A DNA stretch of 64,000 nt from Variovorax paradoxus B4 (GTDB taxonomy: Bacteria; Pseudomonadota; Gammaproteobacteria; Burkholderiales; Burkholderiaceae_C): assembly GCF_000463015.1 (NCBI RefSeq), contig NC_022247.1, positions 2,418,001 through 2,482,000 of the forward strand, read 5' to 3'. The translations under genes and the position numbers were made by a program. Below, one piece after another: positions 15,293 to 64,000 of the stretch. The notes under the pieces were generated by a model, which made no database searches, was not told the DNA's origin, and saw only the letters and a program-made list of their open reading frames with translations. Position 1 is the stretch's first letter. Each line of letters begins with the position of its first letter.

Positions 15293-15330
15293 CCCGCGGC
15301 GCCGACCCGAATCTGTTCGTGAAACACCGA

Positions 15331-16063: not shown

Positions 16064-16093
16064 GGGGCGGACTGTACCGCAAAAACGAGTTTG

Positions 16094-16104
16094 AATTAAT
16101 AATT
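16094..16104. promoter_or_regulatory. AT-rich palindrome in the GntR/mutase intergenic region
   Basis: AATTA-A-TAATT is a perfect 5-1-5 inverted repeat in an otherwise GC-rich neighbourhood, 30 bp from the GntR start and 88 bp before the mutase start. It is the best candidate operator for the GntR protein. Confidence 0.5.
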
Positions 16105-16191
16105 ACAGGATCGGTTAGACTCTCGGCCGGCTTGCAAATCCTTGCAGGCGAATTTGCGACTACCCTGCAAGACACTGCGAAACAGCCCCTC

Positions 16192-18354
<2,163 letters not shown>

Positions 18355-18364
18355 GAAGCAGAGC

Positions 18365-18841: not shown

Positions 18842-19887
18842 ACCCGGCTTCCGCCGCCCTGGAACGCGCGATCGCCGAATCGGACGGCATGGCGCAGCGC
18901 CGGGCGATCGCCAAGGCCATCACGCTGCTCGAATCGACCCGCGCCGACCATCGCGCGCAGGCCGACGAACTGCTCACCGCGCTGCTGCCGCGCACCGGCA
19001 ATTCGTTTCGCCTCGGTATCTCGGGCGTACCGGGCGTCGGCAAGTCGACCTTCATCGAAACACTGGGCCTGCTGCTGATCGACAAGGGGCACCGCGTCGC
19101 GGTGCTCACCATCGACCCGTCCTCCACCGTTTCGGGCGGCTCCATCCTGGGCGACAAGACGCGCATGGAGCGGCTCTCGGTGCACGAGCGCGCCTACATC
19201 CGTCCGAGTCCGTCGAGCGGCACGCTCGGCGGCGTGGCCGAGAAGACACGCGAGGCCATGCTGGTGTGCGAGGCCGCCGGCTACGACATCGTGATCGTCG
19301 AGACCGTGGGCGTGGGCCAGAGCGAGACCGCCGTCGCCGGCATGACCGACATGTTCGTGCTGATGCAGCTGCCCAATGCGGGCGACGACCTGCAGGCGAT
19401 CAAGAAGGGCGTGATGGAGCTGGCCGACCTGGTCGTCATCAACAAGGCCGACATCGACAAGGACGCCGCGACGCGTGCGCAGGCACAGATCACCTCTGCC
19501 CTGCGCCTCTTCGGCCACCAGGGCAACCCGGAGCACGCGCACGCGGTGCACGACGCGCACAGCGGCGCGGAGGTGCGCTTCTGGCTGCCCAGGGTGCTGC
19601 AGCTCAGCGCGCTCGCGGGCACGGGCGTCGATGCCTTCTGGGATGCCGTCATGCAATTCAGGCAACTGCAGACCGCCAACGGCAAGCTCGCCAGGCGCCG
19701 CGAAAAACAGGCCACCGCCTGGATGTGGGAACGCATCGACGCCGGCCTCAAGCAGGCCTTCAGGCAGCACGCGCAGGTGCGCGAACTGCTGCCGCAGCTC
19801 ACCCAGCAGGTGGCGGAGGGCTCGCTGCCCGCATCGACGGCGGCGCGCCAGCTGCTTGCGGCGGCCGCCATCACCGCCAGACCATGA
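18835..19887 (+). CDS. meaB: Methylmalonyl-CoA mutase-associated GTPase MeaB
   Basis: A 350-aa G3E P-loop GTPase. The Walker A motif GVPGVGKST sits at residues 64-72, VGVGQSE is switch-like, and NKAD is the guanine specificity motif. MeaB protects and gates cofactor loading of methylmalonyl-CoA mutase. The GTG at 18835 is taken because the next in-frame reading further upstream lies entirely inside the GNAT gene. It is followed 40 bp later by pccB. Confidence 0.94.
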
Positions 19888-40513: not shown

Positions 40514-40588
40514 GGGCGGTTAGCTCAGGGGTAGAGCACAGCATTCACACTGCTGGGGTCGGAGGTTCGAAGCCTCCACCGCCCACCA
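40514..40588 (+). tRNA. tRNA-Val (anticodon CAC)
   Basis: Full cloverleaf: acceptor GGGCGGT/ACCGCCC, D-arm TAGCTCAGGGGTAGAGCA, anticodon stem CAGCA/TGCTG around the loop TTCACAC (CAC at positions 34-36), T-arm GGAGGTTCGAAGCCTCC, discriminator A and an encoded CCA. It is followed by a terminator and then a recombination scar, consistent with use of its 3' end as an integration site. Confidence 0.96.
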
Positions 40589-41516: not shown

Positions 41517-41717
41517 ATGTACACGCTCATCCGAAACGCCGGCGTCAAGTGCGCACTGGTGGACGAGGCCGTCCCTCTTCTGCTGTCTTTCGGCGTCGCC
41601 GAGGTCTTCTACAAATTCCACAGTTTCATGCTGGAAACGGGGGCCTTCCTGTTGACCTGGCTCGTCGTGAGCTGGCTCGGCAGCGCGATCCGGTCGCGCT
41701 GGCAGCGCCACGGCTGA
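41517..41717 (+). CDS. Small hypothetical membrane protein
   Basis: A 66-aa protein starting MYTLIRNAGVKCALVDEA, with one clear hydrophobic segment (ETGAFLLTWLVVSWLGSAI) and a basic end (RSRWQRHG). A purine-rich GGAAGAAAAGAAG lies upstream. A TTG 24 nt upstream is an alternative start. It lies in the gap between the uppP remnant and the giant operon, 59 bp before the latter, and its function is unknown. It may be a leftover of the former neighbourhood of uppP or the first gene of the operon. Confidence 0.5.
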   Translation: MYTLIRNAGVKCALVDEAVPLLLSFGVAEVFYKFHSFMLETGAFLLTWLVVSWLGSAIRSRWQRHG

Positions 41718-41776: not shown

Positions 41777-42412
41777 ATGACGGATGGAGTCGCGCCAGAG
41801 TATTCACGCTTCGTCGCGGCCGAGCGCCGCGCCCAACGGCTACCGGCGGCGGCGACCCGGCCGATGGCCGAGGGCGAGGTCTTCAAGCCGGTGTCGCTCG
41901 AAGCCAAGCAGGCCACCGAGTTCTTCCGCATCGCCGCGCGGCGCGCGAGCGGCCTCTACCGCCCGAGCCGGCGCAACGAGGTGGTCTGGGTCGAGGGCGA
42001 GAACGAACTCGCCGTGAGCCTGACCGGGCTGCAGGTGCAACTGGCCGACGGCCTGATCCGCGTCACGCTGCCGGTGCGCTGCGACCAGACCGGCAGCGCC
42101 GTGGTCGAAGTGGTGTTCGCGGTCGGCACCGACCCGCAGCCCGCCGGCCTCTATGCGGCGACCTACCGCCGCCCGAACGGCCCGGCGCTGATCGTCGACA
42201 CCTGGGGCGAGGCGCTGGTGGCCTTTGCCTGGCAGGGCGTGCTGGGCATGGTCAGCGGTATCGCCGGCGCGCTCGGCAAGGATGCGCGCGGCAACGTGCT
42301 GGTGCCGGTGGAGCTGACCGCCTCGAAGCGCGGCCTGCAGATCGTGCCGATGGCGCGGCACCGCTTTGCCGGCTCGAGCGGGCTCAGGGCCGTCAAGGGA
42401 GCCACACCATGA
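41777..42412 (+). CDS. Hypothetical protein, first gene of the giant operon
   Basis: A 211-aa protein I do not recognise. It has no signal peptide or membrane helix. Mixed alpha/beta composition with an N-terminal Arg/Ala-rich region (RFVAAERRAQRLPAAATRP), a beta-rich centre (ELAVSLTGLQVQLADGLIRV) and a Gly-rich helix-like stretch (AWQGVLGMVSGIAGALG). It ends 58 bp before the 3308-codon gene on the same strand, with a hairpin between. The codon bias is like that of the following giant genes. A TTG 21 nt upstream is another possible start. Confidence 0.7.
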   Translation: MTDGVAPEYSRFVAAERRAQRLPAAATRPMAEGEVFKPVSLEAKQATEFFRIAARRASGLYRPSRRNEVVWVEGENELAVSLTGLQVQLADGLIRVTLPVRCDQTGSAVVEVVFAVGTDPQPAGLYAATYRRPNGPALIVDTWGEALVAFAWQGVLGMVSGIAGALGKDARGNVLVPVELTASKRGLQIVPMARHRFAGSSGLRAVKGATP

Positions 42413-42439
42413 GCCCCGCCAGGCCGCCCGAAGGGGCTC
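42411..42439 (+). repeat. Hairpin between the first gene and the giant gene
   Basis: GAGCCCC-(15 nt)-GGGGCTC, starting at the stop codon of the 211-aa gene, 31 nt before the giant gene start; GCACCGCAGTGCG follows as a second small palindrome. No T-run. It may tune downstream expression or be a dispersed intergenic repeat. Confidence 0.5.
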
Positions 42440-42470
42440 GCACCGCAGTGCGAAGCATGGAGGTTTCCCA

Positions 42471-45400
42471 ATGAGTTTCGCCACTGACGACCTGGGCGTG
42501 CTCGGCAACCTGGCCGAAGCACTGGGCATCTTCGAGGACGGTGAGCCGAACCCGGCATGGTTCGGCCAGCCGGAGGCCTCGCTCAAGAAGATGCTCTCCA
42601 ACCCCGACCAGCGCCAGGCGCTGATCGCCTTCGTCGACGAGGCCATGGGCGGCGCCGACCGCAGCACCGATCCGCGCGGCGTGGTGTGGCTGCCCATCGT
42701 GCACATCGACGACCCCGACCTCACGGTGTCGGTCACGGTCGACGAGCAGGCGGCCGACAACACCCTGCACATCGGCGTCGCCTTGTCGGTCCGCACCAGC
42801 GGCGCGGTGGAGTCCAACAGCTCGCTGGCCGTGCCCCTGTTCCGGGCGAAGAAGGATGGTGGCCCTTCGGTCTCCAACCCGCTGCTGCTGGGTTCCAACG
42901 GCGGGCGCATCCGCCTGGCGACCGAGATCGTCATCGACGGCGGGCCGCCGGTGCCGGGCCAGGCGCGGCTGGGCGCCATCGGCATCGAGGTCGACCTGCC
43001 CACGCGCCCCGGCGACCCGAAGGACCCGGTGTTCGGCCTCAGCCTCACCGGCTTTCAGCTGCCGGGCGCGACCAGTCCGCGCGACATCCGCGTGGCGGCC
43101 GACGGCGTGGACGAACTGGACGATGCACTGCTCGACCTGGTGCTCGCGCTCGTCAAGTCGCAGGCCGATTCGCAGCCCGCCAACTCGGTGATCGCAGCCA
43201 TCGGCGGCCTCTTGGGCCTGAAGAGCGGCGACGCGATTCCCGACTTCCCGATCACCCTGCTGCCCACGCAAGGCGTGCAGGCCATCACCCAATGGCTGCA
43301 CGGCCTGATCACCAACGCCGCCAGCCGCAACCAGTGGCTGGGCTACCTGGCGCGCCTGTTCGGCGTGGCGCCGCCCGCGCCGGGCCAGCCGGTGAGCTTC
43401 GCCCTGGGCGGCGGCGCGGCGCTCCAGGTCAACCTGCGCGTGGACACCGGCCCCACCGGCAACGCGCGGCTCACGCCCACGCTGGGCCTCGTGTTGGGCG
43501 ATGCGAGCAAGCGCGTCGAGGCACGCGCCGACCTGTTCGACGTCGATCTGGTCACCGGCGCCGCGCGCGCGCTGCCGCAGTTCGGCGTGTGGGCCGCCGC
43601 CGGCAACGCGGGTGCGCGCGTGCTCGACCTGGCCGGTCCGCCGGTCGCGCGCGCCGACACGCTGCGCGTCGGCTTCGCGCTGGATGCGCAGCGGCGCCTG
43701 ACCTTCGTGCTGGCCGCCGACGGCGTGGTGCTCGGCTCGCACAGCTATCCGACGCTGGACCTCACCTCGCCCGACGCAGTGATGGACGCGGTGGGCAACA
43801 CGGTGAGCGACGTGGCCGCGCAACTGCTGGGCAACCTCGGCGGCGCGCTGCCGGCGGTGCGGCTGCTGATCGGCCTAGATGCGCCCGCCGGCGTGACGGC
43901 CATCACGCTGCCCGCGCTGATGACCAACCCGGTCGAGGCCATCGGCGGCTACTGGCAGCAGCTGTTCGCCGCCGCGGGTTCGGCCGCCACGCAGGTGCTG
44001 GCCGAGCTGCGCAACCTCATCGCCGATGCGGGCTCGGCTGCCTCGGCCATCCTGGGATCGGGCAGCGCGCTCGACCCTTGGCGCGTGCCACTCATCGGAC
44101 CCCTGGCGCTGGAGTTCAGCGCCGACGGGCCGGTCGTCTCCATCGGCCTGGCCGTGGGCACCAGCGTCGACCAACTGGGCCAGCGCTGCACCGTCATCGA
44201 AACGCGCATCGCCGCCACGCTCGCCACGCTGAACCTGCAAACGAAGACCGCGAGCCTGCTGCCCGGCGTGGAAGGCGTCCTCTCGGCGCGCGAGCGCGGC
44301 GTCAGCCCGCCGCGCGTCACGCTGCCGCTGGGCGACGGCACCGCGCTCACCGCACGTGGCGTGGGCCTGCGCCTGGGCTGGACGCCGGCTGGCGGCATGT
44401 CGGCCAGCGTGGCCGCGCCCGATCTGCAACTGGCGCTGGGCGACCTCGGCGTGCCCATCGCCATGCCGGTCATCGGCGCGGACGGCAACGTCACGCTGCC
44501 GCCTGTCGCGTGGGACGGCGTGGAGGCCCTGGTCGGCTACCTGGGCCGGCTGCTGGGCGGCGTGTTCGGCGACACGGTCAAGGCGCTGGGCTGGAGCACC
44601 GACGCGCCCAGCACCGCCGGCGTGGCCGACGCCGATGCGCGGCTGCGCCTGGCCGAGCTGGTGGCCGACCCGGCGCAGGCGCTGGCGGCCTGGCTGCCGC
44701 AGCTGGCGCTCAGCGAAGCCGGCCCCGAGGTGCTGTCGCTGCTGTGCGACCTGTTTGTCGGCAGCGGCGCCAATCAGGGCATCGTCGTCGGCACCGGCCA
44801 TCCGGACGACCCGTACCGCCTGGCGATCGGCGACGGCCTGCCGAACATTGCCGTGTGGCTGCCGCCGGCGGGCCTGGCGCCGCGCATCGTGGCCGCGCCC
44901 GAGTCCATCCGCCGCTGGCGGCCGGGTGGCGAGGGTCTGCCGCCCGAGGCACTGGCGGCCGGCCTGGAAGCCGAAGCGCGCGTGGCCACCGACGTGCGCG
45001 AACTGGTCCAGGACCGCGACGTGGCCGGTGGCCTCACCGCGCTGGCGCTGCGCTGGCTGGGTGGCGACGGGCGCATCGCGCCGCCGGCCGCCGCACCCGC
45101 GGGCGTGAACGTCGACCACGCCGGCTTCGCGGCCGGCCAACTGCTGGATCAGCTCGACCTGCAGGACCTGACCGGCCGCGTGCCGACCACCACCGTGTAC
45201 ATCGCGCTCGGCGCCAACGCGTGGCCGCTGGCGCCGGCCGGCCGCCGCGTGAACCTCGGCACGCCGCACCTGGACGCATCCATGTTCGCCGCGCCCGTCG
45301 CGGCCACCGGCGACTGGTTCGTCGTGCTCGGCAGTCGCGCCGACTGCCGCGCCGCCGCGAGCAGCACCGACGGCACGCCCGAGCAGGCCGCGCGCCTGGC

Positions 45401-48400
45401 CCGCGTGCTGGATGCGCTGGCCGGTGTCAGCAACGACATCGCCGTGGTGGCGCTGGCCGGCGCCGGGCATGCGGCGCGGCTCGCGGCCCAGGCGCAGCCA
45501 AAGGTGACCGACCTGGTCACGCTGGGCACGCCGCTGTCGCCCATCGCGCTCACCGCCATCTCCACCCAGCCGACGGCGGATGCGCTGCGCCTGTTGAACC
45601 GCCTGCTGCCGTCGCCGCCGACAGGGCCGGACGACGAACCCGAAGACGCTGATCTGTCGCTGGGCCGCGCGCTCGTCGATTCGATGATGGAACTGTCGGA
45701 CCGCATCGACCCCGGCGACGACCTGCGCGTGCCCAACGACCTGCCGCCCGCGCCTCGCGCCGGGCTGGCCGTCAACGCCGTGTTCGGCGTGGTGACCCAA
45801 AGCCAGGTGGCGCGCGCCATCACCGCCATCGTGGCCGCCGGCCTGGCCGAGCGCGCCCGCATCCGCGCCCAGACCGCGCTGCCCCGGCCCACCGGCGTGC
45901 AGGCCGGCCTGCGCCTGCTGGTGGCGCCCACCTCCACCGGCAGCCTGTCGATCAGCGGCAGCGCGCTGCTGCGCCTGTTCAAGTTCGACTTGGCGGGCGG
46001 CATCGACACCGGCCGCCACCTGCGCGTGCAGCTGCGCGTGGGCGACCGCACCGGCTGGCTGTGCGCCAACCCCGGCCTGGAATTGCGCGCCGTCAGCGCC
46101 GACATCGAGCTGCCGCTGGACGGCGCCGCCACCGGCACCGCCACCGTCACGCTGCACGATGCGCGCGTGTTCGGCCAGTCGTGGGAACGGCTGGTGCTGG
46201 GCACCGGCGAAGGCGCGGTGCCGCTGCTGCCCGAGGCGCGCGTGCTGCTGGCCGCGGCCGTGCAGCGCATCAGTGTCGATGCGGGCGACATCAGCTCCAG
46301 CGCCTCGCTCGCGCTCGATGCATTGCTGGGGGCGCTGGGCCTGGGCGACCCGGCTGGCGGCCTGGCGGGCGATGCGCTCGACCAGCTGCTGCACGACCCC
46401 GGCGGCCTGCTGCGCCAGCGCATGGCGGCGGCCGGCGCTGACATATCGGACGCCGTTTCGGTGCTGCTCGGCCCGCTGTCGGCCAGCGTGGACCTGCTGT
46501 CCCGCACGGTGCACGTGAGCGGCGGCAGCGACGGCAGCGGCCGCTTCGGCTGGCATGCGGACGTGATCGCCTCGCCGGCCGGCCTGGGCGGCGAACTGCG
46601 CTTCGGCATGGACGCGCCGGTGTCCACCGGCAAGCTGCAGCTGGTGCTGGCGCTCGATCCGCTGCACATCCTCCTGCGCTGGCACCAGGCCGGCGGCAAC
46701 GTCGACGACATCTCGCTGTGGCCCAACCCCGAGCCGCAGGCCATCGCCCGCGCGCTGGCGCGCAGCGCCCCGAGCCTGGGAGGCCATGCGGCGCTGGAGA
46801 TGATGCGGCGCGCCGACGCCAGCGTGAAGCCCGTCATCGACGCGGCGCTCGATGCCTTCGGCCTGCTCACCGGCGCGGCGGGGGACGCACAGCGCCGCAT
46901 CCGCCCGCTGGCCGGGCTGCTGGCCGACCCGGCCGGCTACCTGCGCAGTGCGGCCTCGGTGGGCGCCAACCCGGCGCGCATCCAGTCGCTGTTCGATGCC
47001 CTGCGGCCGCTGCTGGGGGTGGGCGGCGCGAACGGCTCGCCGCTGGCCATCGGCAGCGGCATCAGCTTCAGCGTGGCACCGGCCGGTGCCGGCGCGAGGC
47101 TGGCACTGGACGTGGACGCGAGCGCCTGGACCGCACCCGGCGGCGGGGCCGGGCGCCTTGCGGCGGGCGCGGGCGCCAGCCTCACCATCCACCCCGGCGG
47201 CGCACCCGCGCTGGGGATGGAAATGTTCCTGGGCCTGACCGGTGCGTCGTCTTCCGGCAAGCAAGCGGTACATGCGCGGCTGGGTGCGGGCGGCATCGAG
47301 GTGTTCCTGCGTCCGGCCAGCGGTGCCGACATCTCCATCGTGCCTTTCGCGGGCCTGGGTTCACTGGCGGCCGCGGTCGAAGCGGCGCTGCCCTTCCTGT
47401 TCGACAAGCTGGCCGAATCGCCCGCGCCGGTCGGGCCGCTGGTCGCCAAGGTGGGCGATGCGCTGGCCATGCGCAGCGGCGCGCCCGCGAAGTTCGACGG
47501 CGCGCTGCTGCATGACTGGGGCGTGCACCCGGCCGAGAAGCTGGTCGGCGCGCTGCCTTCCATCGGCGCGACCTTGATCACCGAACTGGCACCGCTGCTC
47601 GACAGCTTCCTGCCGGCGGCCGTCAGCGCCAGTTCCGCGCCCGGCCTGCTCATGGTGGCCATCGGCGGCTTCGAGCTGGAACTCGACCTGACGCAAGGCG
47701 TGGTCGCGCTCGAGGGCCACGACATCGCCGTGCCGGGCATCGACCGCATGAGCTTCCGGCTCGCGCTGTCGGACACCGGCATCGACGAGGTCAGCGTCAC
47801 CGCCGGCCCCGCCACGATCGATGCCGGCGGCGTGGAACTGCGCCCCTTCGTCACCGTGGCGGCCGGCAGCGCGCCGCTGCTCGACCGGCGCGTGGTCATC
47901 GGCATGGCGGTGGACGACACGCACCGCTTCGCGCTGCAGTGGCTGCTGGACACGCACCAGGTGAGCCTGGTGGCCATCGACGGCGCCAACGTGGCCGGCC
48001 CCGGCGACGACGACCCGGGCAAGGTCGCGCTGCGTGTGGTGGAAGCCGTGTGCGACCTGGTCGCCAGCGTGGCGATGGCGCAGCCCGCGGTCACGCAGCT
48101 GCTGAACACCGCCGTCGGCGCGACCACGGTGCGCAACATGATGCGCGGCGTGGTGCTGCGCGACCAGGCCAACCCGACGCAGCTGATCGACGGGATGTTC
48201 GACCCGGCCACCTTGCTGCTGCGCGTGCAGAAGCTGTTCGGCAACATCGCCGCGGCCGGCATCTCGATCGACCTGGGCGACTTCATCCTCTCGTTCACCA
48301 AGGACAGCAACAACATCATCGGACTGCAACTGGGCATCGACGGGCGCTTCCCGCTGCTCACGGGCGACGTGATGCTCTGGCTGGAGAACGACGATTCATG

Positions 48401-51400
48401 GATCGAGGGCAACCCGCCGGGCGACGGCGGCATCTTCGTCGGCTTTTTGCCCACCACCGGCCAGATCCGCTTCACGCCCAGCCTGGCGGTGAACGGCGTG
48501 GGCCTGCGCGTGGGCAAGAGCTCGGGGCCGCTGCTGGACTTGGGGCTCACGCTGGAGACGATCGCGCTGCATGTGTTCGCGCGCATCGCCTTTGGCGCTT
48601 CGCCGGCCGAGCAATTGAGCGGCGGCGTGCAGCTGCAGTTCTCCAACCTGGCGGTGTCGGCGGGCGGCGCGCAGGGCGACAACGGCATCGCGCAGGGCGT
48701 GATGAAGGACACCGGCCCGACGCCGCCAAAGCCGGCCTTCTCGCCGGCGCTGGCCATCCAGAAACACGGCAGCCAGCCGGTGCATGTCGGCTTGCGTGCC
48801 GGCGATGGCGACGGCCCCTGGTGGATCGCCATCCAGAAGGGCTTCGGCCCGCTGTACCTGGAGCAGGTGGGCTTTGGCGCGACCATGCCCGGCGGCAAGG
48901 TGAGCAGCGTCTCGCTGCTGATGGACGGCTCGGTCTCGATGTTCGGCCTGAGCTGCGCGGTGGACGACCTGCAGATCACCTACCTGGCCAGCCGCGGCGA
49001 CTTCTTCAACCCGGTCAACTGGCACGTCGACCTGGCGGGCCTGGCGGTGTCGGCCAACATGGCCGGCCTCACGATCGCGGGTGGCCTGCTCAAGCAGCAG
49101 ACGCCCGCCGGCATCGAGTACCTGGGCATGCTGCTCGGGCGCTTCGCGGTGTACGGCATCACGCTGTATGGCGGCTATGGCGAAGGCAAGGTGGCGGGCA
49201 GCGAAGAGAAGTTCACCGCCTTCTTCGCGGTGGGCGCGGTCAACGGCCCCATCGGCGGGCCGCCGGCCTTCTTCCTCACCGGCATCGGCGGCGGCTTTGG
49301 CATCAACCGCGAGCTGATCGTGCCGACGGATCTTTCGAGGTTCGGCGACTACCCGCTGATCCAGGCGCTGGACATCGCCGCGCAGCCGCAGAACCCGATG
49401 GACCAGCTGCGCAAGCTGGGCGCCTACTTCCCGATGCAGAAGGGCAGCTTCTGGTTCGCGGCCGGCCTCTCGTTCAACAGCTTCGCGCTGGTCGACGGCA
49501 TTGCCGTGGTGGCGGTGGAAGTGGGCGATGGGCTGGACATCAACCTGCTCGGCCTGGCGCGCATGGCGCTGCCCAGGCCTCAGGTGGCGCTGGTGTCGAT
49601 CGAGCTGGCGCTGCTGGTGCGCTTCTCCAGCAGCGAGGGCGTGCTGTGGGTGCAGGGCCAGCTCACCGACAACTCCTGGCTGCTGTACCAGGACGTCAAG
49701 CTTACCGGCGGCTTTGCCTACGTGATCTGGTTCAAGGGCGAGAAGAAGGGCGAGTTCGTCCTCACGCTGGGCGGCTACCACCCCGACTTCCACCGCGACG
49801 GCTACCCGGTGGTGCCGCGCCTGGGCCTGCGCTGGAGCGTGTCCGACAACATCGTCATCAAGGCAGAGAGCTACTTCGCGCTGACCTCCGAGGCGCTGAT
49901 GGCCGGCGGTGCCTTCGAGGCCTCTGCACATTTCGGGCCGGCCTGGGCCGAGGTGAAGTTCGGCTGCAACGGCATCGTCTTCTTCGACCCCTTCCATTAC
50001 CACGTCGATGCCTATGCGCGCATCGCGGCGGGCGTGACCATCGACACCTGGATCTTCGGCGAGGTCACCATCTCGATCAGCCTGGGCGCCAGCATCGACG
50101 TGGCGGGGCCGGACTTTCACGGCACCGCCACGTTCGAGATCGGGCCGATCGAGCTCACGGTGTCCTTCGGCGAATCCGACAAGGCACAGAAGCAGCCGCT
50201 GCCGGGCCCGGCCTTCATCACCAAGTACCTGGAGGCGGCCGACAACGGCGCCGCGCGGCCGCATGCGCTCATCACCGGCCTGGGCGCGCTGCCGGCCAAG
50301 GGCGAGCAGTCCACGCCCGACGGCTCGTCCGCGCGGCCCTTCGTGGTGGTGGCCGAGTTCACGCTCACCTTCACCAGCACGGTGCCGGCCACCAGCGTGA
50401 CGCGGGTGCAGCCGCCGGCCGGCATGACGTCCACCTCGCAGCACGCGGCCAGCCGCGCCATTGGCGTGGCGCCCATGGACAAGGCCAACCTGCAGCCGGG
50501 CATCCAGCTCACCTGGAAGCGCAACGGCACACAGACCTTCCCGTTCACGGCCACGGCGCGGCCCTTCGGCAGCTTCCCGGTCGGCGTGTGGGGGCCGGCG
50601 CAGGACGCGAACAACCGCAAGGTGCCCAAGGCCGAGATGATCGAGGCGCTCAACGAGCTCGACCTGGTCTCGGTGGGCAAGGAATCGGTGCCCGGGCCGG
50701 AGATTCCGTACTACCAGGTGGTGCCCGGCGTGCGCAAGCCGCTGCCCTTCTCGCGCCGCACGGTGGACGTGAACCTGATCAAGTCGCAGGCGCAGGCGGT
50801 GGCCGGGCTCGTCACCGCGCCGGCCACGGTGTCGGCGGCCTTCCAGCAGGCCGGCAAGTACCTCACGGCCACGCCCACTGCCAAGGCATCGCTGCGCGGC
50901 GAGCGCCAGTCGCCGCCGCGGATGGGCACGCTGGCCGAGGGGCTGCAGGGCGATCCGGGCACGGTCATTCCGGTGGTGGCGCCGGGCCGCGAAGGCAAGG
51001 TGTACGACCACTTCGTCGATGCACCGGTCGCGGTCGGCTTCCTGCCCGGCGCCACGGTGGACCTGCGCGTGGTCGCGCCCACGCGCACCACGGTCAAGGG
51101 CTCGGCCAAGGGCTGGCGCAAGACGCCGCCCACGCTGGCTTCGGTGGAAGCCGAGCGCAGCAAGTCGATCGCGGCGCGCCTCGTGCTGGCCGAGCCGCAG
51201 GCGGCCCGCGCGGCCACGGGGCGGCAGCAGACCGTGATCGGCATGGTCGAAGTGCCGCTCACCGCGGTGGGCCATGCGGCGCCCGCGATGGTGTCGCGCA
51301 CCGGCGCGGAAGCGTCGATGCTGGGCGGCTTCAGCAGCGCGCTGGTCGCGGGCCAGACGGCGCCCCCGGTGCCCAAGTCGGCGCGCGCTGCCAAGGCGGC

Positions 51401-54463: not shown

Positions 54464-55479
54464 AGAACTTCATGGACGCCGCCATGGCGATCGACGCGGC
54501 GCAGGCCGCCGCGCTGAACTACGCCGCCTACGTCACCGACCACGATCCCGACGACGGCGACAACGTGGTGCCGCGCGAGCTGCGCCGCTTCATGGCACGC
54601 CTGCGGCTGTTGCACGGCGTGCCCTTCAACTACCTGGTGCCCGATGCGCAGTTGCTGCCGATCGAGACCATCCGCTTCTTCTACATCGACCGCGCCTGGA
54701 CCGACGCGCTGGTGCAGGGCGCCTTGAGCATCGGCACCATCTCCAGCGCCGACCGGGCGCAGCTGGAGGCCGTCTACCCGCACATCCGCGACGAGGTCGA
54801 CACGGCCGAGCGCTACGTGCGCGAGCCGCGCGCCGAGAAGAAGCTGGCCGGCGATGGCGGCACGATCACCGGCTTCGTCATGCGCTCGCGGCTGGTGTCG
54901 GGCTGGCCCAACCTGCATGTGCGCGCCTACTCGCGCGACCTGCTGCCCGACGATGCGCTGACCACCGCGGCCGAGTCCGACCCCAGCCGCCTCAAGGTGC
55001 TGCGGCTGGAGCGGCTGGCGCCGGCCGTGCTGCTGGTGCTGTTCGACGGCGTGCCGGCCGTGGTGCACATCGAGGAGCCGCGCCAGGGCATCCAGTTCGG
55101 CGTGCGGCTGGCCGACGGCGCGCAGCCGGGCCAGCATGTGGCCAAGGTGCAGCTGCGCGACTGCAACAACGGCAACCCGGTGCCGCCCTCGGCGCCGCTC
55201 GGCGCCAACAACTCGGTCAACGTGCCGTTCCGCCGCAATGCGCCGGGCGTGATCAACCTGGCCGAGCTGCGCAAGCGCCAGGCGGACAAGGCGCCCAATT
55301 CGGGCGGTACGCTGGAGCCCAACGAGTACGCGCTGCAGATGCTGCGCTTTCCCTTCCGCCAAGTGTTCGGCGACCCGAAGGACCTGGAGGGCAAGAAGTT
55401 CTACGGGCTCGACCAGTTCAAGGTCACGCTGCCCTTGAGCGAGTGGAAGAACACGCTGACTGCGAAGGTGAATTCGTAA
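54460..55479 (+). CDS. Hypothetical protein of the giant operon (339 aa)
   Basis: Unrecognised, with no signal or membrane segment. The ATG overlaps the previous stop (ATGA), and its own last base is the first base of the next start. A highly structured motif near residues 60-92 (YLVPDAQLLPIETIRFFYID then WTDALVQGALSIG) looks like a family signature. A later part has LERLAPAVLLVLFDGVPAVVHIEEP and, near the end, ALQMLRFPFRQVFGD. The smallest of the coupled proteins, it may be an adaptor between the larger ones. Confidence 0.75.
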   Translation: MKNFMDAAMAIDAAQAAALNYAAYVTDHDPDDGDNVVPRELRRFMARLRLLHGVPFNYLVPDAQLLPIETIRFFYIDRAWTDALVQGALSIGTISSADRAQLEAVYPHIRDEVDTAERYVREPRAEKKLAGDGGTITGFVMRSRLVSGWPNLHVRAYSRDLLPDDALTTAAESDPSRLKVLRLERLAPAVLLVLFDGVPAVVHIEEPRQGIQFGVRLADGAQPGQHVAKVQLRDCNNGNPVPPSAPLGANNSVNVPFRRNAPGVINLAELRKRQADKAPNSGGTLEPNEYALQMLRFPFRQVFGDPKDLEGKKFYGLDQFKVTLPLSEWKNTLTAKVNS

Positions 55480-58400
55480 TGGCCACGCAACTCAAGCTTG
55501 CTGCCGAGGACGTGCGTCAGCTAACGTACGGCAAGCGCTTCCTCGCCGCCGACCGCGCGCAGTTGGACGTGCGTGAGATCTCCACCTGGGACAAGTACCT
55601 GCTGCGCGAGCACCGCCTGCTGGTGCCGATGAACGTGCAGGCGCTCTATGTGCAGCCCGGCAGCGCCGAGCCGATGGTGCGGCTGCCCATGCTGGTGGCC
55701 GGCCCCACCGGCAAGGGCGTGGAAGACCCCGAGGACGGCATGCCCGACCCCTTCGCCGCCGGCACGCCGCGCCCGGCCGGCGTGCACCTGCACTGGGCCA
55801 TGCCCGACGCGCTGCTGCGCGGCACACTCGCCACGCGCGCCGACGGCGCCGCCAACCGCCTTGCGCTGCCGGTGCTGCCCGACCGCTGGGTGGTGCTGCG
55901 CATCCTATTGCCGCGCGGCAGCAAGAATGCGGTGACCACGGGCTGGGTGCTCGAGGCCGACCGCGCCATCGCCGTGCCGCTAGGCTCGTGGACGGAAGGC
56001 GGAAGCAAGAGCGCCGTGCCCGCCGGCGAAACGATCGAGCGCGGCCGGCTCACCGGCACCGTGGGCGGCTCGATCAGCTGGTCGGGCGTGTACGACGCGG
56101 TGCTCAACCGCTTCGCCTTCCACGACACGCTGGCCGACGTGGCGGCGCTCGCGCCCCAGGGCGTGGATGAGGACTGCGCCGCCTACGTGGTGGCCGGCTG
56201 GTGGAGCGACCCGGCGCTGGACCCGCTGGACAAGGCGCGCAGCAGCAACAGCCTGGACGAGCTGCTGGCCAGGCTGCGCTGGGGCCTGCTGTACGAGTGG
56301 GGCGACGAGAAGTGGACGCAGGAGCAGGACCGCGCGCAGTTCGAGCTGCGCAAGGCGCTGGGCCTGACCACCGAGGAGCGCTGGTCGAGCAAGCGGCCGC
56401 TGGACATTCCGGCGCCTGTCAAGCGCACCGGCGTGGCGGCTGCGGCGGCGGCCGTCGCCGCGCCTGCGCCGGCCTACACGCCCATCGACAAGACCTTCGT
56501 CGAAGTGCAGATGCTCACCGCCGCGTCGACCTTCTCGGCCGACGCCGGCCGCCGCTTCGTCGCGCCGCCGTGGCATCTGCGCTCGTCGCTGCTGCATGGC
56601 GCGATCTATGGCGTGCCGGTGGCGGGCACGGCGCCGGTGGACCGTCGGCCATCGGCCGGCACGCTGCGCGTGGCCATTGGCCAGCACGAGGACGAGATGC
56701 TGGCCGCGCTGTCGGCCGCGCCGCAGGCCACGCCGGAACAGCGGCGCGCTTCGGAGCGGCTGCTCACCGCCTTCACCGCGCAGAAGATCAACCGCCTGGG
56801 CTCGCCCGACGGCCTGGTGGAACTGGAAGAGCACGAGCACGCAGCCGCCTTCACCTCGGTGCCCGGCGGCATCGACGGCGACGACCGCTATATGCAGCGC
56901 GTGCAGACCGGCGGCGCCGGCGGCATGGCGGTGGGCAAGTACCGTGGGCAACGCGCGACGGCGAATGTGGAAGCGGTGAAGAAGGGCCTGGGCGAGGGTG
57001 CGCCGCGCGCGGCGCAGGCCGTGGGCGGCACCACGGTGTATTCCAGCAAGTCCAAGCCCACGCTCATCAACGCCAGCGCGGCGCGGGTGAACGACATTGC
57101 CCGCTCGCGCGTGGGCGAGGTGCTGGCGCCGACTGAATCACGCATCGTCAAGCGCCCCGCTGCGCGCTTCGCTTTTCCCGACGAGCCGATGGTGGCCATC
57201 CGCGGCGCCTCACGCAGCCTGCGCCACGGCAACGACGGGCGGGGCTCGGCGGCCGGCACGCTCACCTGCCGCTGGCCCACGCACGTGATCCAGGAGATCA
57301 GCGGCGTGATCGCCAAGGACCGCTTCGTGCGTTCGCTCGGCAACGGCTCGGTGCCGAGCGAGGCGCTCACGCTGGCGCGTGAGGCGGTGCTGCACGACCC
57401 CTACCACGACGACTGGATCGCCGATGCCGTCGCGCCGTCGGCGGCTGGGCGCACCGGCATCTTCAACCGGCTCAAGGCCGAGTCGGTGCTGCGCTTCGGC
57501 GTGGACGGCACCTATGACGGCGCCACCGCCTTCCTGGGCAGCGCAGCCGCGCCCAAGACGGCCCGCGCCGCGCGGGCCGGCGCTGCTGCGGCGGCGCAAC
57601 GGCCCATCGAACCCGGCGTGCAGCAGCACCAGCGCATGGTCGCGGACGAGACGCGCAAGCTCTCGCTCTACAAGGGCGCGGACCCCGACCTGGTGGGCGT
57701 GACCACCTGGGCGCAGCCGTGGATCCCGATGTGGCTGGAGTGGGAGCTGCAGGTGGAAGGCATCGACCCGCCCACGCTGGAGGCCTGGCATCTCGGCGCC
57801 GTTGACCTCGAAACCCAAGGCACCGCGGGCCAGGGCGCCGGCACCGTGTTGCGCGGACGCGCCCTGCTCACCACCGGCGCGGCCCATACCCTGCACCGCG
57901 CGATCTCCGATTGGCTCACGGCCGAGGACAAGCTCGACGCCATCCACGCGGGCCAGGTCGACGAGGCCACCGAGGCGGCGTACCAGACGCTCGATGCCGC
58001 GGTCGACAAGCTCGACGTGGTGACGGCTGCATTGGACGGCATGCGCACCCAGCTGCTGGGCCTGGCCGTGACCGATGGCCTGCGCCGCCCGGCCAGCGGA
58101 GGCGGCATTGCCAACCCGGCGCCCATCGCCCCGCCGCACATGCTGCTGGCCGGCGCGCTCACGCTGACGCGTGCGCGCCTGCTCGATGCCTTCGGCCGTA
58201 CGCTGGACGTGCCGGTGGGCCAGGTGGCCGTGCCCATGCGCAGCGCCCTGCCGGCGCGGCCCAATGCGCTGGCCGTCGCGCCGCGGCTGATGCGCCCCGC
58301 GCGCTGGCAGTTCAAGCTGGTCGACGCCAAAACCGAGGTCGGCACCGTGGGCGTGGATGCGCGGGTCGACCAGATCGACACCACACTGCAGGTGAACCCG

Positions 58401-59513
58401 GTGGCCGGTTTCGTGATGCCCGACCACCTCGACGAAAGCCTGGAACTGTTCAGCGTCGACGGCTCGCCCATCGGCGAGCTGCTGCACGAGCCGGTGAGCG
58501 GCGGCGTGATGTGGGAGATTGCCGCCGGCCGTGAAGGCCCGGCCGACTCCGGCCCGCTGTACGGCCTGGCGCCAGCGCAGCAGGCGCTCGGCCGCTTCGC
58601 CAGCGGCCTGGTGGCCGCCGATGCCGCCGCGCGCGCCGGCGCGCCGCTGGCGCCCGACAGCGGGCAGGAGACGGCGCTGTCGGCCCTGCTGCGCGCCATC
58701 GACACCACGCTGTGGACGGTCGACAGCTTTGCCGCGCTCGGCAGCGAGCACGTGGCCGGGCTGGTGGGCCGGCCCATTGCGGTGGTGCGCGCGCAACTCA
58801 AGCTGGAGCTGCGGCCGCCGGACGACATCGACCTGAGCGACGCGCAGCGCGCCGAGGAATGGGTCGACGCCGAGCGCGAGGCCGCGCGCCACGCCTTCCC
58901 GGTGCGCATCGGCGAGGTCACGCGCAGCGACGACGGCGTGCTGGGCTTCTTCGTGGACGATGACTATGCGCACTTCCGCCTGGTCGACAAGGCCATTGCC
59001 GGCACCGCCGCCGAGGCCGGCCGCAGCCGCGGGCAGCTGGGCCTGTACGCCAGCGTGACCGGCATGCCGCCCAGGACCTCGATCACGCACCCCTACATCG
59101 CCGGCACCGACGACGCCGACACGCTGATGCTGCACATCGGCCAGAGCGTGACGCTGACGATCTTCATGCATCCGGCCGGCAAGGCCACGCTCACATCGGG
59201 CGTGCTGCCGCGCAAGGCGCTGCAGCTGGCGCGCGACTGGGTCGGGCCGGGGCTCGCGACCATCGCGCCCTCGCTGCGCACCGGGCCGGTGATGGTGGAA
59301 ACCGACCTCGACAAGGAAGGGCAGGTGCGCCTGCCCAAGGTGTCGGTGTTCGGCAAGGACCAGAACTTCCTGTGGCGCGACACGCCCGCCACCTGGCGCA
59401 CCGACGCGATCCTGGCCGCGACGCAGACCGCGCTGCTGCCCGACACGCCGGCCGAACTGCGCGAAGGATGGATCCGCGTGGCGCCGGATGCGCCGAAGGA
59501 GGGGCAGCCATGA
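55479..59513 (+). CDS. Large hypothetical protein of the giant operon (1344 aa)
   Basis: A 1344-aa unrecognised protein, starting one base inside the previous stop. No signal peptide. Near residue 100 the segment PAGVHLHWAMPDALLRGT looks like a conserved motif. Alanine-rich linkers near residues 315-330 and 690-710 (AARAARAGAAAAAQRPIEPG) divide it in at least three globular parts. The C-terminal third contains DDIDLSDAQRAEEWVDAERE and ends with FGKDQNFLWRDTPATWRTDA, followed by ELREGWIRV. Its place between the 339-aa and propeller genes and the ATGA link to the latter argue for a complex. Function unknown. Confidence 0.78.
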   Translation: MATQLKLAAEDVRQLTYGKRFLAADRAQLDVREISTWDKYLLREHRLLVPMNVQALYVQPGSAEPMVRLPMLVAGPTGKGVEDPEDGMPDPFAAGTPRPAGVHLHWAMPDALLRGTLATRADGAANRLALPVLPDRWVVLRILLPRGSKNAVTTGWVLEADRAIAVPLGSWTEGGSKSAVPAGETIERGRLTGTVGGSISWSGVYDAVLNRFAFHDTLADVAALAPQGVDEDCAAYVVAGWWSDPALDPLDKARSSNSLDELLARLRWGLLYEWGDEKWTQEQDRAQFELRKALGLTTEERWSSKRPLDIPAPVKRTGVAAAAAAVAAPAPAYTPIDKTFVEVQMLTAASTFSADAGRRFVAPPWHLRSSLLHGAIYGVPVAGTAPVDRRPSAGTLRVAIGQHEDEMLAALSAAPQATPEQRRASERLLTAFTAQKINRLGSPDGLVELEEHEHAAAFTSVPGGIDGDDRYMQRVQTGGAGGMAVGKYRGQRATANVEAVKKGLGEGAPRAAQAVGGTTVYSSKSKPTLINASAARVNDIARSRVGEVLAPTESRIVKRPAARFAFPDEPMVAIRGASRSLRHGNDGRGSAAGTLTCRWPTHVIQEISGVIAKDRFVRSLGNGSVPSEALTLAREAVLHDPYHDDWIADAVAPSAAGRTGIFNRLKAESVLRFGVDGTYDGATAFLGSAAAPKTARAARAGAAAAAQRPIEPGVQQHQRMVADETRKLSLYKGADPDLVGVTTWAQPWIPMWLEWELQVEGIDPPTLEAWHLGAVDLETQGTAGQGAGTVLRGRALLTTGAAHTLHRAISDWLTAEDKLDAIHAGQVDEATEAAYQTLDAAVDKLDVVTAALDGMRTQLLGLAVTDGLRRPASGGGIANPAPIAPPHMLLAGALTLTRARLLDAFGRTLDVPVGQVAVPMRSALPARPNALAVAPRLMRPARWQFKLVDAKTEVGTVGVDARVDQIDTTLQVNPVAGFVMPDHLDESLELFSVDGSPIGELLHEPVSGGVMWEIAAGREGPADSGPLYGLAPAQQALGRFASGLVAADAAARAGAPLAPDSGQETALSALLRAIDTTLWTVDSFAALGSEHVAGLVGRPIAVVRAQLKLELRPPDDIDLSDAQRAEEWVDAEREAARHAFPVRIGEVTRSDDGVLGFFVDDDYAHFRLVDKAIAGTAAEAGRSRGQLGLYASVTGMPPRTSITHPYIAGTDDADTLMLHIGQSVTLTIFMHPAGKATLTSGVLPRKALQLARDWVGPGLATIAPSLRTGPVMVETDLDKEGQVRLPKVSVFGKDQNFLWRDTPATWRTDAILAATQTALLPDTPAELREGWIRVAPDAPKEGQP

Positions 59514-62500
59514 GCCGGTACGAATGGCCGATTGCGCCCGCGCACGCCGACGAGGGCGACGGCGACGACCCGGCGGCGCGCAGCCGCTACAACTCGCGCC
59601 GGCGCAGCGCGCTCGATCTGGGGAAAGCACTGCGCGCCAGCCGCACGCCGCAGCAGTTGCCTCCTGCGGCGCGACGCGGGCGCGCACCCGGACCCTTCGC
59701 CCCAATCATGGGCGACCAGTTCGTGTGGCAGCACCTGGGCCCGGCCACCGTGCTGGGCGGCCAGGCCGAAGGCAACCCGCGCGTGGCCGGCCGCATCAAT
59801 GCGCTGTGCGTGCACGAGCTCGGCCAGCGCATCTATGCGGCGTCGGCCAACGGCGGTGTCTGGTACTCGAAGAACGGTGGCGACAGCTGGGTCTCGGTGG
59901 GCGGGCTGGCGCCGACCAACACGGCGGGCATCAACCGGCCCGCGCAGCGCAACGCCTGCGGTGCGCTCGAAGTGATCTTCGGCACCAACGAAGGCGACGA
60001 CACCGTGTTCCTGGGCACCGGCGAAGTGAACAGCGACCCCGAGGGCCACGTCGGCGATTCGGAAGGCGGCGTGGGCATCCTGGTGGGCGACAAGCCGGCC
60101 AAGCCCGGCGCCGCGGCCGACCCGTGGAAGCCCGAGGCCCACCACCTGGTCAACAACGGCATCTACCGCTTCGCGCGCGACCCCGAGAGCGCCACCATCC
60201 TGGTGGCCACGCTCACCGGCCTGTACCAGCGCCCGGCGGCGCACGCCGGCGAGGTCGACTGGGGCCGGCCCACCGCCACGCCCTTCGCCACGCTGGACAA
60301 GCCCTGCACCGACATCCTCTGGACGGCGGCCAACGGCACGTCGCCCGCGCGCTGCTGGGTGTGGGTGAAGGATGGCCCCGACTTCGGCCTCTGGGTGCGC
60401 GCCAACGGCACCGCCAATTTCAAGAAGGTGACGGTCGATGCGACAGCGGGCCTGGCCTACGTCGCGCGGCGGGGCGCGCTGGCGGCCTCCAACCCGCCGA
60501 CGCAGGTGTGGCTGCTCAACGACTACGGCGGCGGCGCCGGCACCGCGGGCCTGTTCCGCGTGACCAACCCGGCCAGCGGCACCGACCCGGTGGCGCACGG
60601 CGTGGTCGGCGTGCCCGACGTGCTGCGCAACCAGGGCTTCTACGACATCGCCATCGCAGTCGACCCCAACAACGCCAACCGCGTGGTGCTGGGCGGCTGC
60701 TTCATGGAAGACGTGCAGCTGGACGGCAAGCAAGTCCAATACAACGCTGCGATCACCGTGGCCGACGTCGCGGCCAATCCCGCCAACGCCGGCATCCTGA
60801 CCTATGGGCAGCCCAACCGCTACACGCTCATCGGCCTGGGCGCGCATGCCGACGTGCACGCGCTGGCCTTCAGCAACGCCGGCACCTCGCTGTGGACGGG
60901 CTGCGACGGCGGCGTGTTCCGCAGCGACCGGCCCGACCGCCCGGCCGGCTTCTATCCGCGCAACCACGGTCTGAGCATCAGCGAGAGCAACTACGTGGCC
61001 TGCCATCCCATGGCCGAGGGGCACCTCCTCAGCGGCCTGCAGGACAACGGCACGGTGCAGCGCATGTCCAGCGGCGTGTGGAAGATGAAGTACATGGGCG
61101 ACGGCGGCGGCATCGTCCTGAACGCGGCCAACCCGAGCGAGTCCTTCGCGCAGTACGTGCAGGGCAACTGGAACCGCGACCCCACCGGCGGCACCGGCCC
61201 GCTGACCCGCGGCAACCTGGTGCTGCCTTCCGAACGCGACGGCGCCGCCTTCTATTCGATGCCGGCCAACATCGCCAACACGCGCAGCGCGCCGGCGGCG
61301 GGCGTGCCGGCCAGCTTCAGCCAGACCTTGATCGGCACCTGGCGGCTCTGGTACTCGGACGACTTCGGCAAAAGCTGGGTCACGCTGCCCACCGCGACCG
61401 ACCCGCTGGCCGGCATGACCGCCACGCCGCCGGTCATCAACGCCGGGCAGGACAGCCTCGGCAACGTGATCACCGCCTGCCGCTGGCAGGGCCCCGACGT
61501 GGCCTGGGTGCTGTGCGACCAGCGCATCCGGCGCTATTCGCGCGCCGCCGGCGCGCCCAACGGCGGCGGCCCGGGCGTGTGGGTGGACCAGAACGTGGTG
61601 CCGACCGGCTACACCCCGCCGCCCACCCCGCCCGGCATCCCGCCCAGCCCCGAGCCCGGGGGCAAGGCCAAGAAGCGGCCGCCCCCGCCGCCACCCGCGC
61701 CTGCCCCCGCGCCCCTGCCGATCTCGCTGCTCGACTCGGAGGTATGGACCGACATGGCACCCAACCTCGACGCGCCGCCGGCGCCCGGCCAGCCGCCCGC
61801 GCAGCACGGCACGCTGGGCGCGCTGTACGTGGGCACCATCGGCCACAAGACGATGCCCAACACCGACACGCTGTTCTGGTTCGACGGCACCGACAAGTGG
61901 TATCCCACCGGTCTTCATGCCATCGTGCCGGCGCCGGTGCTGGCCATCGCCTGCCGGCCGGAGCTTCCGCTGGAGGTGTGGGCCGGCACCGCGGTGGGCG
62001 TGTGGCAGGGCGTGCGCACCGACCACGGCGCCGATGCGCCGACCTGGGCCTGGACGCAGCGCGTCAACGGCCTGCCCGAGGCGGCGGTGGAAGACCTGGC
62101 CTTCCACAGCTTCAACGGCGTGACCCTGCTGCGCGCGGGCGTCGCAGCGCGCGGCGTGTGGGAGCTGCGGCTGGATGATCCGACCGCGGCTGACCGGACC
62201 TACCTGCGCATCCACGAGGACGATTTGCGCTACGCCGTGCCGCCTCTGGTGACGCCGCCCAACGGCAACCTGCGCGTGCTGAAGAAGCGCGACCTGGTCA
62301 CCGACCGCTCCTGGCACAGCAGCCCCGACATCCGCCCGCGCAAGGCGCCAGCCGCCATGCCCGCACCGTCCACGCTGCCCTGGCGGCGCGACCCCTTCCG
62401 CGGCACGAAGGAGCAGTTGCGCCGCTTCCAGGCCGCGCTGCGCTCCAGCACCAGCGACCCGCGTATCGTCGCCAACGGCATCTGGGACGTGTACTTCAGC

Positions 62501-63217
62501 GAGGTGCTGCGCGACCATGGCGCGCCGGTGCTGGCGGTGCCGGCCACGGTGCCGCCCGCGCCGCCGATGCCGGCGCTGAGCGTGGCGCGCATCAACGCGG
62601 CCTTCTGGAACACGCACATGACCGGCGCCCATGCCACGCGCGAGCCCTGGGGCACCGGCAAGCCGACCGAAGCCGACCTGTACGAGCTCACACCCGACAT
62701 CCCCGAGGGCGACCTGGGCCGCACCTCGTATGCGCTGAAGCGCGGCGCCCTCAAGGTCGACATCGTGGTGCAGCACCGCGGACTCGGCGCGCGCGACGGC
62801 GCCGACGTGCGCGTGACGCTGTTGCAGTGGATCGACCCCAAGCCGCACCACCGCGCCAAGTGGAACGACACCGCGACCTGGTTCACCGACCCGGTGCCGT
62901 GGACCGGCGCGGTCAACGAGGTGCTGAACTCCGCCGCCGGCACCACCGCGCTGGCTTTCGGCGCCGGCTGGAGCTTCGTCGGCAGCACCGACGCCACGCG
63001 GCGCCAGACGCTGGCCGGCCAGACGCTGGACGCCACGCACGCCGGCATCGCGACCTTCGACCTGGCTACCGGCACGCTGGCCAACAACCGCGTGATCCTG
63101 CTGGTGGCCGTGATCCGGGCCGGCGCCGACATCGCGCTCGCACCCGCCACCCTGCAGGAGCTGGCGCTGACTCGTCCCGAAGTCGCCGTGCGTTCGCTGC
63201 ACGTCACCACCACTTGA
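59510..63217 (+). CDS. Asp-box beta-propeller protein (1235 aa)
   Basis: A 1235-aa protein overlapping the previous stop (ATGA). Repeated blades with at least two Asp-box motifs: SKNGGDSW at residues 120-127 and SDDFGKSW at 616-623, of the kind found in sialidase/Vps10/GH74-like propellers; many ILVATLTGLYQR and LWTGCDGGVFRSD strands also fit. Residues about 703-740 are a Pro-rich hinge (PPPTPPGIPPSPEPGGK, then KKRPPPPPPAPAPAP). Blade-like sequence continues to about residue 890, and the C-terminal 340 residues form another domain. No signal peptide and no glycosidase catalytic residues that I can recognise, so a binding role is more likely than hydrolysis. Confidence 0.78.
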   Translation: MSRYEWPIAPAHADEGDGDDPAARSRYNSRRRSALDLGKALRASRTPQQLPPAARRGRAPGPFAPIMGDQFVWQHLGPATVLGGQAEGNPRVAGRINALCVHELGQRIYAASANGGVWYSKNGGDSWVSVGGLAPTNTAGINRPAQRNACGALEVIFGTNEGDDTVFLGTGEVNSDPEGHVGDSEGGVGILVGDKPAKPGAAADPWKPEAHHLVNNGIYRFARDPESATILVATLTGLYQRPAAHAGEVDWGRPTATPFATLDKPCTDILWTAANGTSPARCWVWVKDGPDFGLWVRANGTANFKKVTVDATAGLAYVARRGALAASNPPTQVWLLNDYGGGAGTAGLFRVTNPASGTDPVAHGVVGVPDVLRNQGFYDIAIAVDPNNANRVVLGGCFMEDVQLDGKQVQYNAAITVADVAANPANAGILTYGQPNRYTLIGLGAHADVHALAFSNAGTSLWTGCDGGVFRSDRPDRPAGFYPRNHGLSISESNYVACHPMAEGHLLSGLQDNGTVQRMSSGVWKMKYMGDGGGIVLNAANPSESFAQYVQGNWNRDPTGGTGPLTRGNLVLPSERDGAAFYSMPANIANTRSAPAAGVPASFSQTLIGTWRLWYSDDFGKSWVTLPTATDPLAGMTATPPVINAGQDSLGNVITACRWQGPDVAWVLCDQRIRRYSRAAGAPNGGGPGVWVDQNVVPTGYTPPPTPPGIPPSPEPGGKAKKRPPPPPPAPAPAPLPISLLDSEVWTDMAPNLDAPPAPGQPPAQHGTLGALYVGTIGHKTMPNTDTLFWFDGTDKWYPTGLHAIVPAPVLAIACRPELPLEVWAGTAVGVWQGVRTDHGADAPTWAWTQRVNGLPEAAVEDLAFHSFNGVTLLRAGVAARGVWELRLDDPTAADRTYLRIHEDDLRYAVPPLVTPPNGNLRVLKKRDLVTDRSWHSSPDIRPRKAPAAMPAPSTLPWRRDPFRGTKEQLRRFQAALRSSTSDPRIVANGIWDVYFSEVLRDHGAPVLAVPATVPPAPPMPALSVARINAAFWNTHMTGAHATREPWGTGKPTEADLYELTPDIPEGDLGRTSYALKRGALKVDIVVQHRGLGARDGADVRVTLLQWIDPKPHHRAKWNDTATWFTDPVPWTGAVNEVLNSAAGTTALAFGAGWSFVGSTDATRRQTLAGQTLDATHAGIATFDLATGTLANNRVILLVAVIRAGADIALAPATLQELALTRPEVAVRSLHVTTT

Positions 63218-63237
63218 GGAAGAACAGGAGCCCCGCC

Positions 63238-64000
63238 ATGACCATCGTCCGGAAGATCTGCTCGCCCTACCTGCCCGTCCACAGCGGCCGCCCCGCCACG
63301 ACTGCGCGAGCGAGCGAACAGGCCGCCACCGACGAACGCGTCGACAACATCCGCATCCGGCCGCTGGGCGCGCCCGCCGCGGGCCGCGCGCGTGCCGCGG
63401 TGGAACGCATGAAACTCTGGGACAACGGCCGCACGCTGCGCGTGAAGTTCCTCGACGGCGTGCCCGAGGTGCAGGCCAGGGTCGAGGCGATCGCGCACGA
63501 GTGGGAAGCCATCGCCAACCTCACGCTGAAGTTCGTGGCAGCCGGCGCCAGCGAGATCCGCATCAGCTTCGCCGAAAAGGGCTTCTCGTGGTCGACCGTC
63601 GGCACCGACGCGCTCACCGTCGCCGCCACGAAGGCGACCATGAACTACGGCTGGCTGGAGCCGAGCACCGCGCTGCGCGAATACCAGCGCGTGGTGCGCC
63701 ACGAGTTCGGCCATGCGCTCGGCATGATCCACGAGCACCAGAACCCGGCCGCCCAGGGCCAGATCCCGTGGGACAAGGAGAAGGTCTACGCCTACTACGC
63801 GCAGCAGAACTGGACGCGCGACGACGTCGACTTCAACCTGTTCCAGCTCTACAGCGAGGACAGCACCAACCACACCGCGTTCGACCCGACCTCGATCATG
63901 GAATACGCGATCCCCGATTCGCTGACGGTCGGCTCGTATTCGGTCGGCTGGAACACCGAGTTCTCGGCCACCGACATCGAGTTCATGCGCCGCCAGTACC
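63238..64000 (+). CDS. Astacin-like zinc metalloprotease (partial, runs off the window)
   Basis: The first 254 residues are visible. HEFGHALGMIH at 155-165 is the HExxHxxGxxH metzincin zinc motif (H155, E156, H159, H165), and SIMEY at 219-223 is the Met-turn with M221 and Y223, both as in astacins (M12A). A globular N-terminal part precedes it (WDNGRTLRVKFLDGVP). There is no N-terminal signal peptide, unusual for an astacin. It starts 20 bp after the propeller gene with AGGAG upstream, so it belongs to the operon. The C-terminus is outside the window. Confidence 0.85.
   Translation, partial: MTIVRKICSPYLPVHSGRPATTARASEQAATDERVDNIRIRPLGAPAAGRARAAVERMKLWDNGRTLRVKFLDGVPEVQARVEAIAHEWEAIANLTLKFVAAGASEIRISFAEKGFSWSTVGTDALTVAATKATMNYGWLEPSTALREYQRVVRHEFGHALGMIHEHQNPAAQGQIPWDKEKVYAYYAQQNWTRDDVDFNLFQLYSEDSTNHTAFDPTSIMEYAIPDSLTVGSYSVGWNTEFSATDIEFMRRQY

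Follow-up and report, generated by a model that had tools for sequence, protein, structure and literature searches.

A seven-gene operon of Variovorax paradoxus B4 contains four genes, B to E, that recur in one fixed order in six bacterial phyla and SAR324 and that are followed here by a variable pair, F and G. The operon was analyzed in a window of 64,000 nucleotides (the whole stretch of DNA under study). Conserved order, tight coupling, fusion of C with D, variable module genes, and an intact protease motif are established at the sequence level. We tentatively favor the reading that the four proteins make up a chassis fitted with exchangeable modules for binding or proteolysis, most likely acting outside the producing cell.

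Operon layout

Genes A to G occupy 41777-64332 on the forward strand (Table 1). Neighboring genes overlap by 4 nt at B/C, C/D, and E/F and by 1 nt at D/E, and are separated by 58 bp at A/B and 20 bp at F/G; recomputed starts and ends agree with the preliminary description, which had listed seven genes on one strand with their lengths, overlaps, and gaps. Gene G, followed there to the edge of the window, has its stop at 64332, which completes the operon 332 bp beyond the window edge; in the host genome (7.15 Mb, two contigs), the ORF picked after it (64316-64585) runs on the opposite strand.

Table 1. Features of the operon, by position in the window
Feature	Position	Strand	Description
Gene A	41777..42412	+	211 aa, small protein, no known family
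Gene B	42471..52397	+	3308 aa, chassis protein, contains DUF6603
DUF6603 domain (PF20248) of B	48831..50285	+	Residues 2121-2605
Gene C	52394..54463	+	689 aa, chassis protein
Gene D	54460..55479	+	339 aa, chassis protein
Gene E	55479..59513	+	1344 aa, chassis protein
Gene F	59510..63217	+	1235 aa, propeller-like (weak Asp-box match), variable-module gene
Gene G	63238..64332 (window ends 64000)	+	364 aa, M12A astacin-type zinc protease

Base composition was of the coding type in six of the seven frames (GC3, 0.82-0.93; GC2, 0.50-0.57; ORFs scored from the first possible start, with D left out as a separate ORF). Together with the recurrence elsewhere of the gene content, order, and tight junctions, this argues against a chance arrangement. 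None of the seven proteins has an evident signal peptide, the best 10-residue mean near the N terminus being 1.21 or less; the preliminary description had also called them signal-less, and the agreement is that of a simple hydropathy scan, not SignalP. No sheath, tube, Rhs, or secretion ATPase gene had been recognized there, and the searches agree: Pfam and NCBIfam returned no such family, PHROGs gave two weak matches of unknown function, and membership in a known secretion or phage tail system was found in none of the three collections.

Gene A had no Pfam or NCBIfam match and one PHROG match (E value, 0.28; function unknown), and also precedes B in the three relatives with sufficient flank (G091, G193, and G074). 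Directly 5′ of A lies a 66-aa ORF with hydrophobic stretches (41517-41717), which has a relative in the same place in G091 and is possibly part of the unit. A tRNA-Val (cac) lies just 5′ of the operon (40514-40588), with an ORF on its other side that we take to be DnaQ-like; the tRNA is a possible insertion site.

Genes B to E and DUF6603

Profiles of the seven proteins, run on the ORFs of 82 loci, found B, C, D, and E on the same strand and in the same order in 75; the seven partial loci (L021, L032, L051, L052, L054, L069, and L095) hold their remaining genes in that order too, giving no order violation. The loci comprise 77 from species-representative genomes (drawn from the best 80 of 108 confirmed E stretches), the window, G091, and three plasmid records; all were fetched through E, whose presence is therefore given, and some are near relatives, from one species or from one genome with two loci, and not independent. 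Because the loci had been found via E, the association was also tested from the other side, by a scan for DUF6603: this domain occurred in 9 of 299 genomes of the phylum (window included), every one of which has C, D, and E adjacent, and in none of 14 control genomes. Conservation of gene order had been proposed as a check in the preliminary description, where single, scattered homologues were to count against an assembly; the homologues proved to be ordered and clustered.

The relatives are numerous (at E values of ≤1e-3, 678 for E among 7,994 scored candidates and 1,745 for fused C-D among about 8,000). C, D, and E have no Pfam or NCBIfam match above threshold; C matches a PHROG of unknown function (E value, 0.0018).

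Coupling recurs along with order. With starts chosen by a simple rule and the window and G091 not counted, an overlap or a gap of ≤20 bp was seen at the B-C junction in 57/72 loci and at the D-E junction in 59/75, and C and D overlapped in 29 of the 35 loci that have them separate. Of 29 E-F junctions, 24 overlap, 18 of them by 4 nt and 6 by 1 nt. C and D form one ORF in 39 of the 76 loci holding both, and this fusion is the best sequence evidence that chassis proteins touch. The earlier proposal that such coupling reflects a stoichiometric assembly is thereby well supported, by inference from the conserved order, overlapping junctions, and fusion, and B to E quite probably form one complex. 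They would be an obligately associated chassis, translated sequentially, with no Sec signal evident here, and assembled into one particle. Among relatives, rule-chosen starts gave an N-terminal hydrophobic stretch scoring >2.0 in 19/78 E ORFs and 1/31 fused C-D ORFs by the hydropathy scan; those inspected read like strands in alignments but could be signals.

Gene B matches DUF6603 (PF20248; E value, 6e-114; 381.8 bits against a cut-off of 27 in Pfam), a feature that the preliminary description did not mention; residues ~1280-1800 hold divergent internal repeats (hhalign probability up to 89%). A structure model of the domain, made for one short Streptomyces relative (pTM, 0.46), consists of about 20 amphipathic strands in a long antiparallel meander. 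It loosely resembles long amphipathic sheets such as those of ApoB100 and porins (rmsd, 8.8-10 Å), with Foldseek TM scores by query of 0.09-0.19 in the top ten and no match at an E value of ≤1e-3; the modeled likeness would amount to a shared long sheet. DUF6603 had no PDB sequence match at an E value of ≤5, and a literature search found no paper naming it. Fold searches, which had been suggested for every protein, covered C-D and DUF6603, and this loose likeness was their sole outcome. The long sheet may contact lipid.

Variable module and astacin-type protease

Beside the chassis, usually 3′ of E, stands a module that differs between two classes of loci: propeller and/or astacin in one, fibre-like or adhesive proteins in the other. 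In the class with separate C and D (37 loci), F is present in 29, G in 12, and the fibre-like family c0 (defined by blastp clustering) in none; in the fused class (39 loci), c0 is present in 30, and F and G are in none. Some loci end before the module position. G occurs without F in three loci (L026, L028, and L029). The c0 genes are mostly 3′ of E; those of L057 are 5′ of B, and one of the L076 members is a reverse-strand ORF. The first class-II module protein scanned had no family match; among 37 class-II module and similar proteins, the scan found F5/8 C in three, hemopexin in two, a lactonase-type propeller in two, and PLAT in one, and bactofilin matched weakly in two.

The Asp-box propeller of the preliminary description came out weaker than stated: F matches BNR_6 with 15.1 bits (E value, 0.025), below the Pfam cut-off of 27, and its relatives in L034 and L053 reach 16.9 and 17.0 bits. 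In L024, a Piscinibacter MAG, the F relative (13984-19248) has a complete astacin domain inserted between F-like parts (Pfam E value, 2e-44); the domain is of another sequence type than G, and its zinc motif is shared by the F relative of L033 (13978-19176). The F relatives of L024, L025, and L034 also have weak C-terminal Beta-lactamase2 matches, below the cut-off. The class-linked modules and the astacin inserted in F point to an exchange site for binding or catalytic domains beside the fixed genes B to E.

Gene G is an M12A astacin-type protease, in agreement with the preliminary description, which had listed an astacin-like metzincin protease in the operon: Pfam Astacin scored 30.3 bits for the part in the window and 29.2 for the whole gene (cut-off, 22.5), and G has both the zinc motif HExxHxxGxxHE and the Met-turn SxMxY of astacins. 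All 12 G proteins share HEFGHALGMIHE, the Met-turn SIM[EQ]Y, and a Cys in an ICSP motif near the N terminus; in several relatives another Cys lies three residues N-terminal to it, and the window copy has a single Cys, near its N terminus. The closest solved relative is myroilysin (PDB 5gwd; residues 48-256; E value, 1e-58). The C-terminal part of G is PPC-like, below the cut-off, and its N terminus has no hydrophobic stretch (10-residue maximum, 0.74; simple hydropathy scan, not SignalP). G, a protease-type protein, also matches NCBIfam NF050131 (beta-glucuronidase AbsR1) with 132 bits against a cut-off of 650; the name of that family may be doubtful. The aligned Cys predicts that G is perhaps a cysteine-switch zymogen like myroilysin, and its invariance suggests that G may be a second lineage with myroilysin-type latency.

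In the mechanism that we propose, the swappable module (F and G here) would give the chassis its binding or catalytic function: F may dock on the chassis and bind a surface, and G may be carried in latent zymogen form, restrained by its N-terminal Cys until it is released and becomes active. The site of action would most likely be outside the producing cell, with other cells or surfaces as the target, and would be reached through lysis or nonclassical export; this location is suggested by the domain types of the swappable modules, which could also work inside. Among the options raised in the preliminary description (a surface or cytosolic particle, an exported carrier, or a lysis-released complex), the module favors a carrier or adhesive particle and decides none. 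A more specific form of the proposal, which we regard as doubtful, makes DUF6603-C-D-E a new noncontractile, signal-less delivery or attack particle found across phyla, with a chassis of membrane-meeting amphipathic beta-sheet and with interchangeable receptor-binding and latent metalloprotease modules.

Distribution, alternative readings, and known systems

By locus titles, the operon occurs in Pseudomonadota, Actinomycetota, Acidobacteriota, Gemmatimonadota, Bacteroidota, Bacillota (through a Paenibacillus plasmid), and SAR324; the Acidobacteriota, Gemmatimonadota, and SAR324 loci are MAGs, whose bins may be wrong. Names on the listed C-D relatives add Chlorobiaceae, Myxococcota, and Herpetosiphonaceae. 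Distribution is patchy: E is present in 4 of 200 family genomes, its own included, and absent from the one genome of the same genus sampled. A quick tree of E (77 rows) splits deeply into two groups corresponding to the two C/D classes, with Fulvivirga (C and D separate, on a very long branch) on the fused-class side; the window E adjoins Variovorax soli and two proteobacterial MAGs. A mostly betaproteobacterial group of Pseudomonadota includes, with strong support, Arthrobacter sp. Bi26 and a Holophagaceae MAG, which suggests transfer (misbinning might explain the Holophagaceae placement; the Arthrobacter record carries no MAG label), and horizontal spread of the operon is probable on this sequence evidence.

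No secretion, lysis, or immunity family is recurrent beside the loci: 107 of the 177 listed neighbors were scanned, and no family occurred in more than three. The Streptomyces loci L062 (1552-3717) and L070 have a common gene 5′ of B, the L062 copy of which weakly matches Peptidase_M91, an effector-type zinc protease family (24.4 bits; cut-off, 25). The linear chromosome of Streptomyces olivoreticuli carries two different copies of the operon near its two ends (L062 and L091), and the start of the L062 operon recurs at the far end of L091, perhaps as a terminal inverted repeat. ORFs beside the operon in L075 (15462-22598; 2,378 aa) and L059 (13017-20225; 2,402 aa) form one blastp cluster, and the Fulvivirga member of this pair has polyketide synthase domains.

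Four other readings were weighed. B to E could be an intracellular, lipid- or envelope-associated complex, a cytosolic lipid-handling body in which DUF6603 is an apolipoprotein-like belt or lipid transfer sheet and F and G are regulators or processing enzymes. We consider this unlikely, because the strand alternation of the DUF6603 sheet is also expected of a closed barrel or an ordinary soluble sheet and its only control is the C-D strands, which alternate less (+1.58/+0.08), and because adhesive and protease modules better fit an external role.

A cell surface coat or appendage that leaves the cell through an unlinked system, such as the T6SS in this host, or by a nonclassical route is also rather improbable. 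The host genome does have two TssC/VipB-type (T6SS) matches (G000:C2:237600 and 691474), and class-II module genes include adhesin-type domains; however, homologous loci in Streptomyces, Paenibacillus, and Bacteroidota make one shared exporter unlikely, and Pfam shows no T9SS tail domain in the core proteins of two loci, one from Fulvivirga and one from Cytophagales.

We judge it very unlikely that the operon is a divergent Tc toxin complex or contractile injection system. The giant signal-less proteins and the propeller-like part would suit such a system, as would two sets of neighbors: TcB-like (SpvB, TcdB mid) and RHS genes adjoin the SAR324 locus on the opposite strand (L058, 16273-23569), and baseplate-V-type genes lie about 9 kb 5′ of the operon on the Paenibacillus plasmid. 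Each set was seen once among the loci examined, however, and the window's seven proteins matched no SpvB, TcdB, RHS, sheath, or tail family at an E value of ≤1 in Pfam; the host's own genome has no SpvB and no phage sheath (PF04984, 0/1), and E has no relatives in phage or viral-contig collections.

A loose genomic island of coupled, functionally unrelated genes traveling beside the tRNA fits the tRNA-Val just 5′ and the patchy spread (3/199 other family genomes) but is largely refuted for B to E by strict order and fusion across deep divergence, leaving it highly improbable.

The chassis with exchangeable modules is the favored reading. A four-protein unit kept in one order across such a range, and annotated as hypothetical proteins and a single DUF, points to a substantial function that has yet to be described. 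A chassis delivering proteases to other cells would represent a novel type of bacterial weapon or tool, equipped with a natural cargo port; lipid binding would make it a bacterial analogue of apolipoprotein belts. In either case, the fixed chassis and its swappable ends lend themselves to direct tests.

Among the known systems tested, none matches the gene set. Extracellular contractile injection systems are encoded by a large operon that ends in exchangeable fibre- or receptor-type genes; the operon is alike in size and in its exchangeable end genes but has no sheath, tube, or baseplate family. Tc toxin complexes combine giant signal-less proteins, a propeller-like part, and a modular business end, all of which have a likeness here, whereas the window proteins have no Tc, RHS, or SpvB domain and the gene set is different. 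The Pfam entry DUF6603, itself a domain without known function, is contained in B, whereas Pfam has no entry for such a system that is matched by its partners C, D, and E or by the module genes. With the ApoB100 beta belt and outer membrane barrels, the modeled DUF6603 may share a long antiparallel amphipathic meander, differing in that its fold matches are loose and that its sequence finds no PDB match at the threshold given above. Finally, G differs from myroilysin in sitting in this operon, in having no evident signal peptide, and in its PPC-like C-terminal part (below the cut-off), and has in common with that M12A astacin the zinc motif and an N-terminal Cys, single in the window copy.
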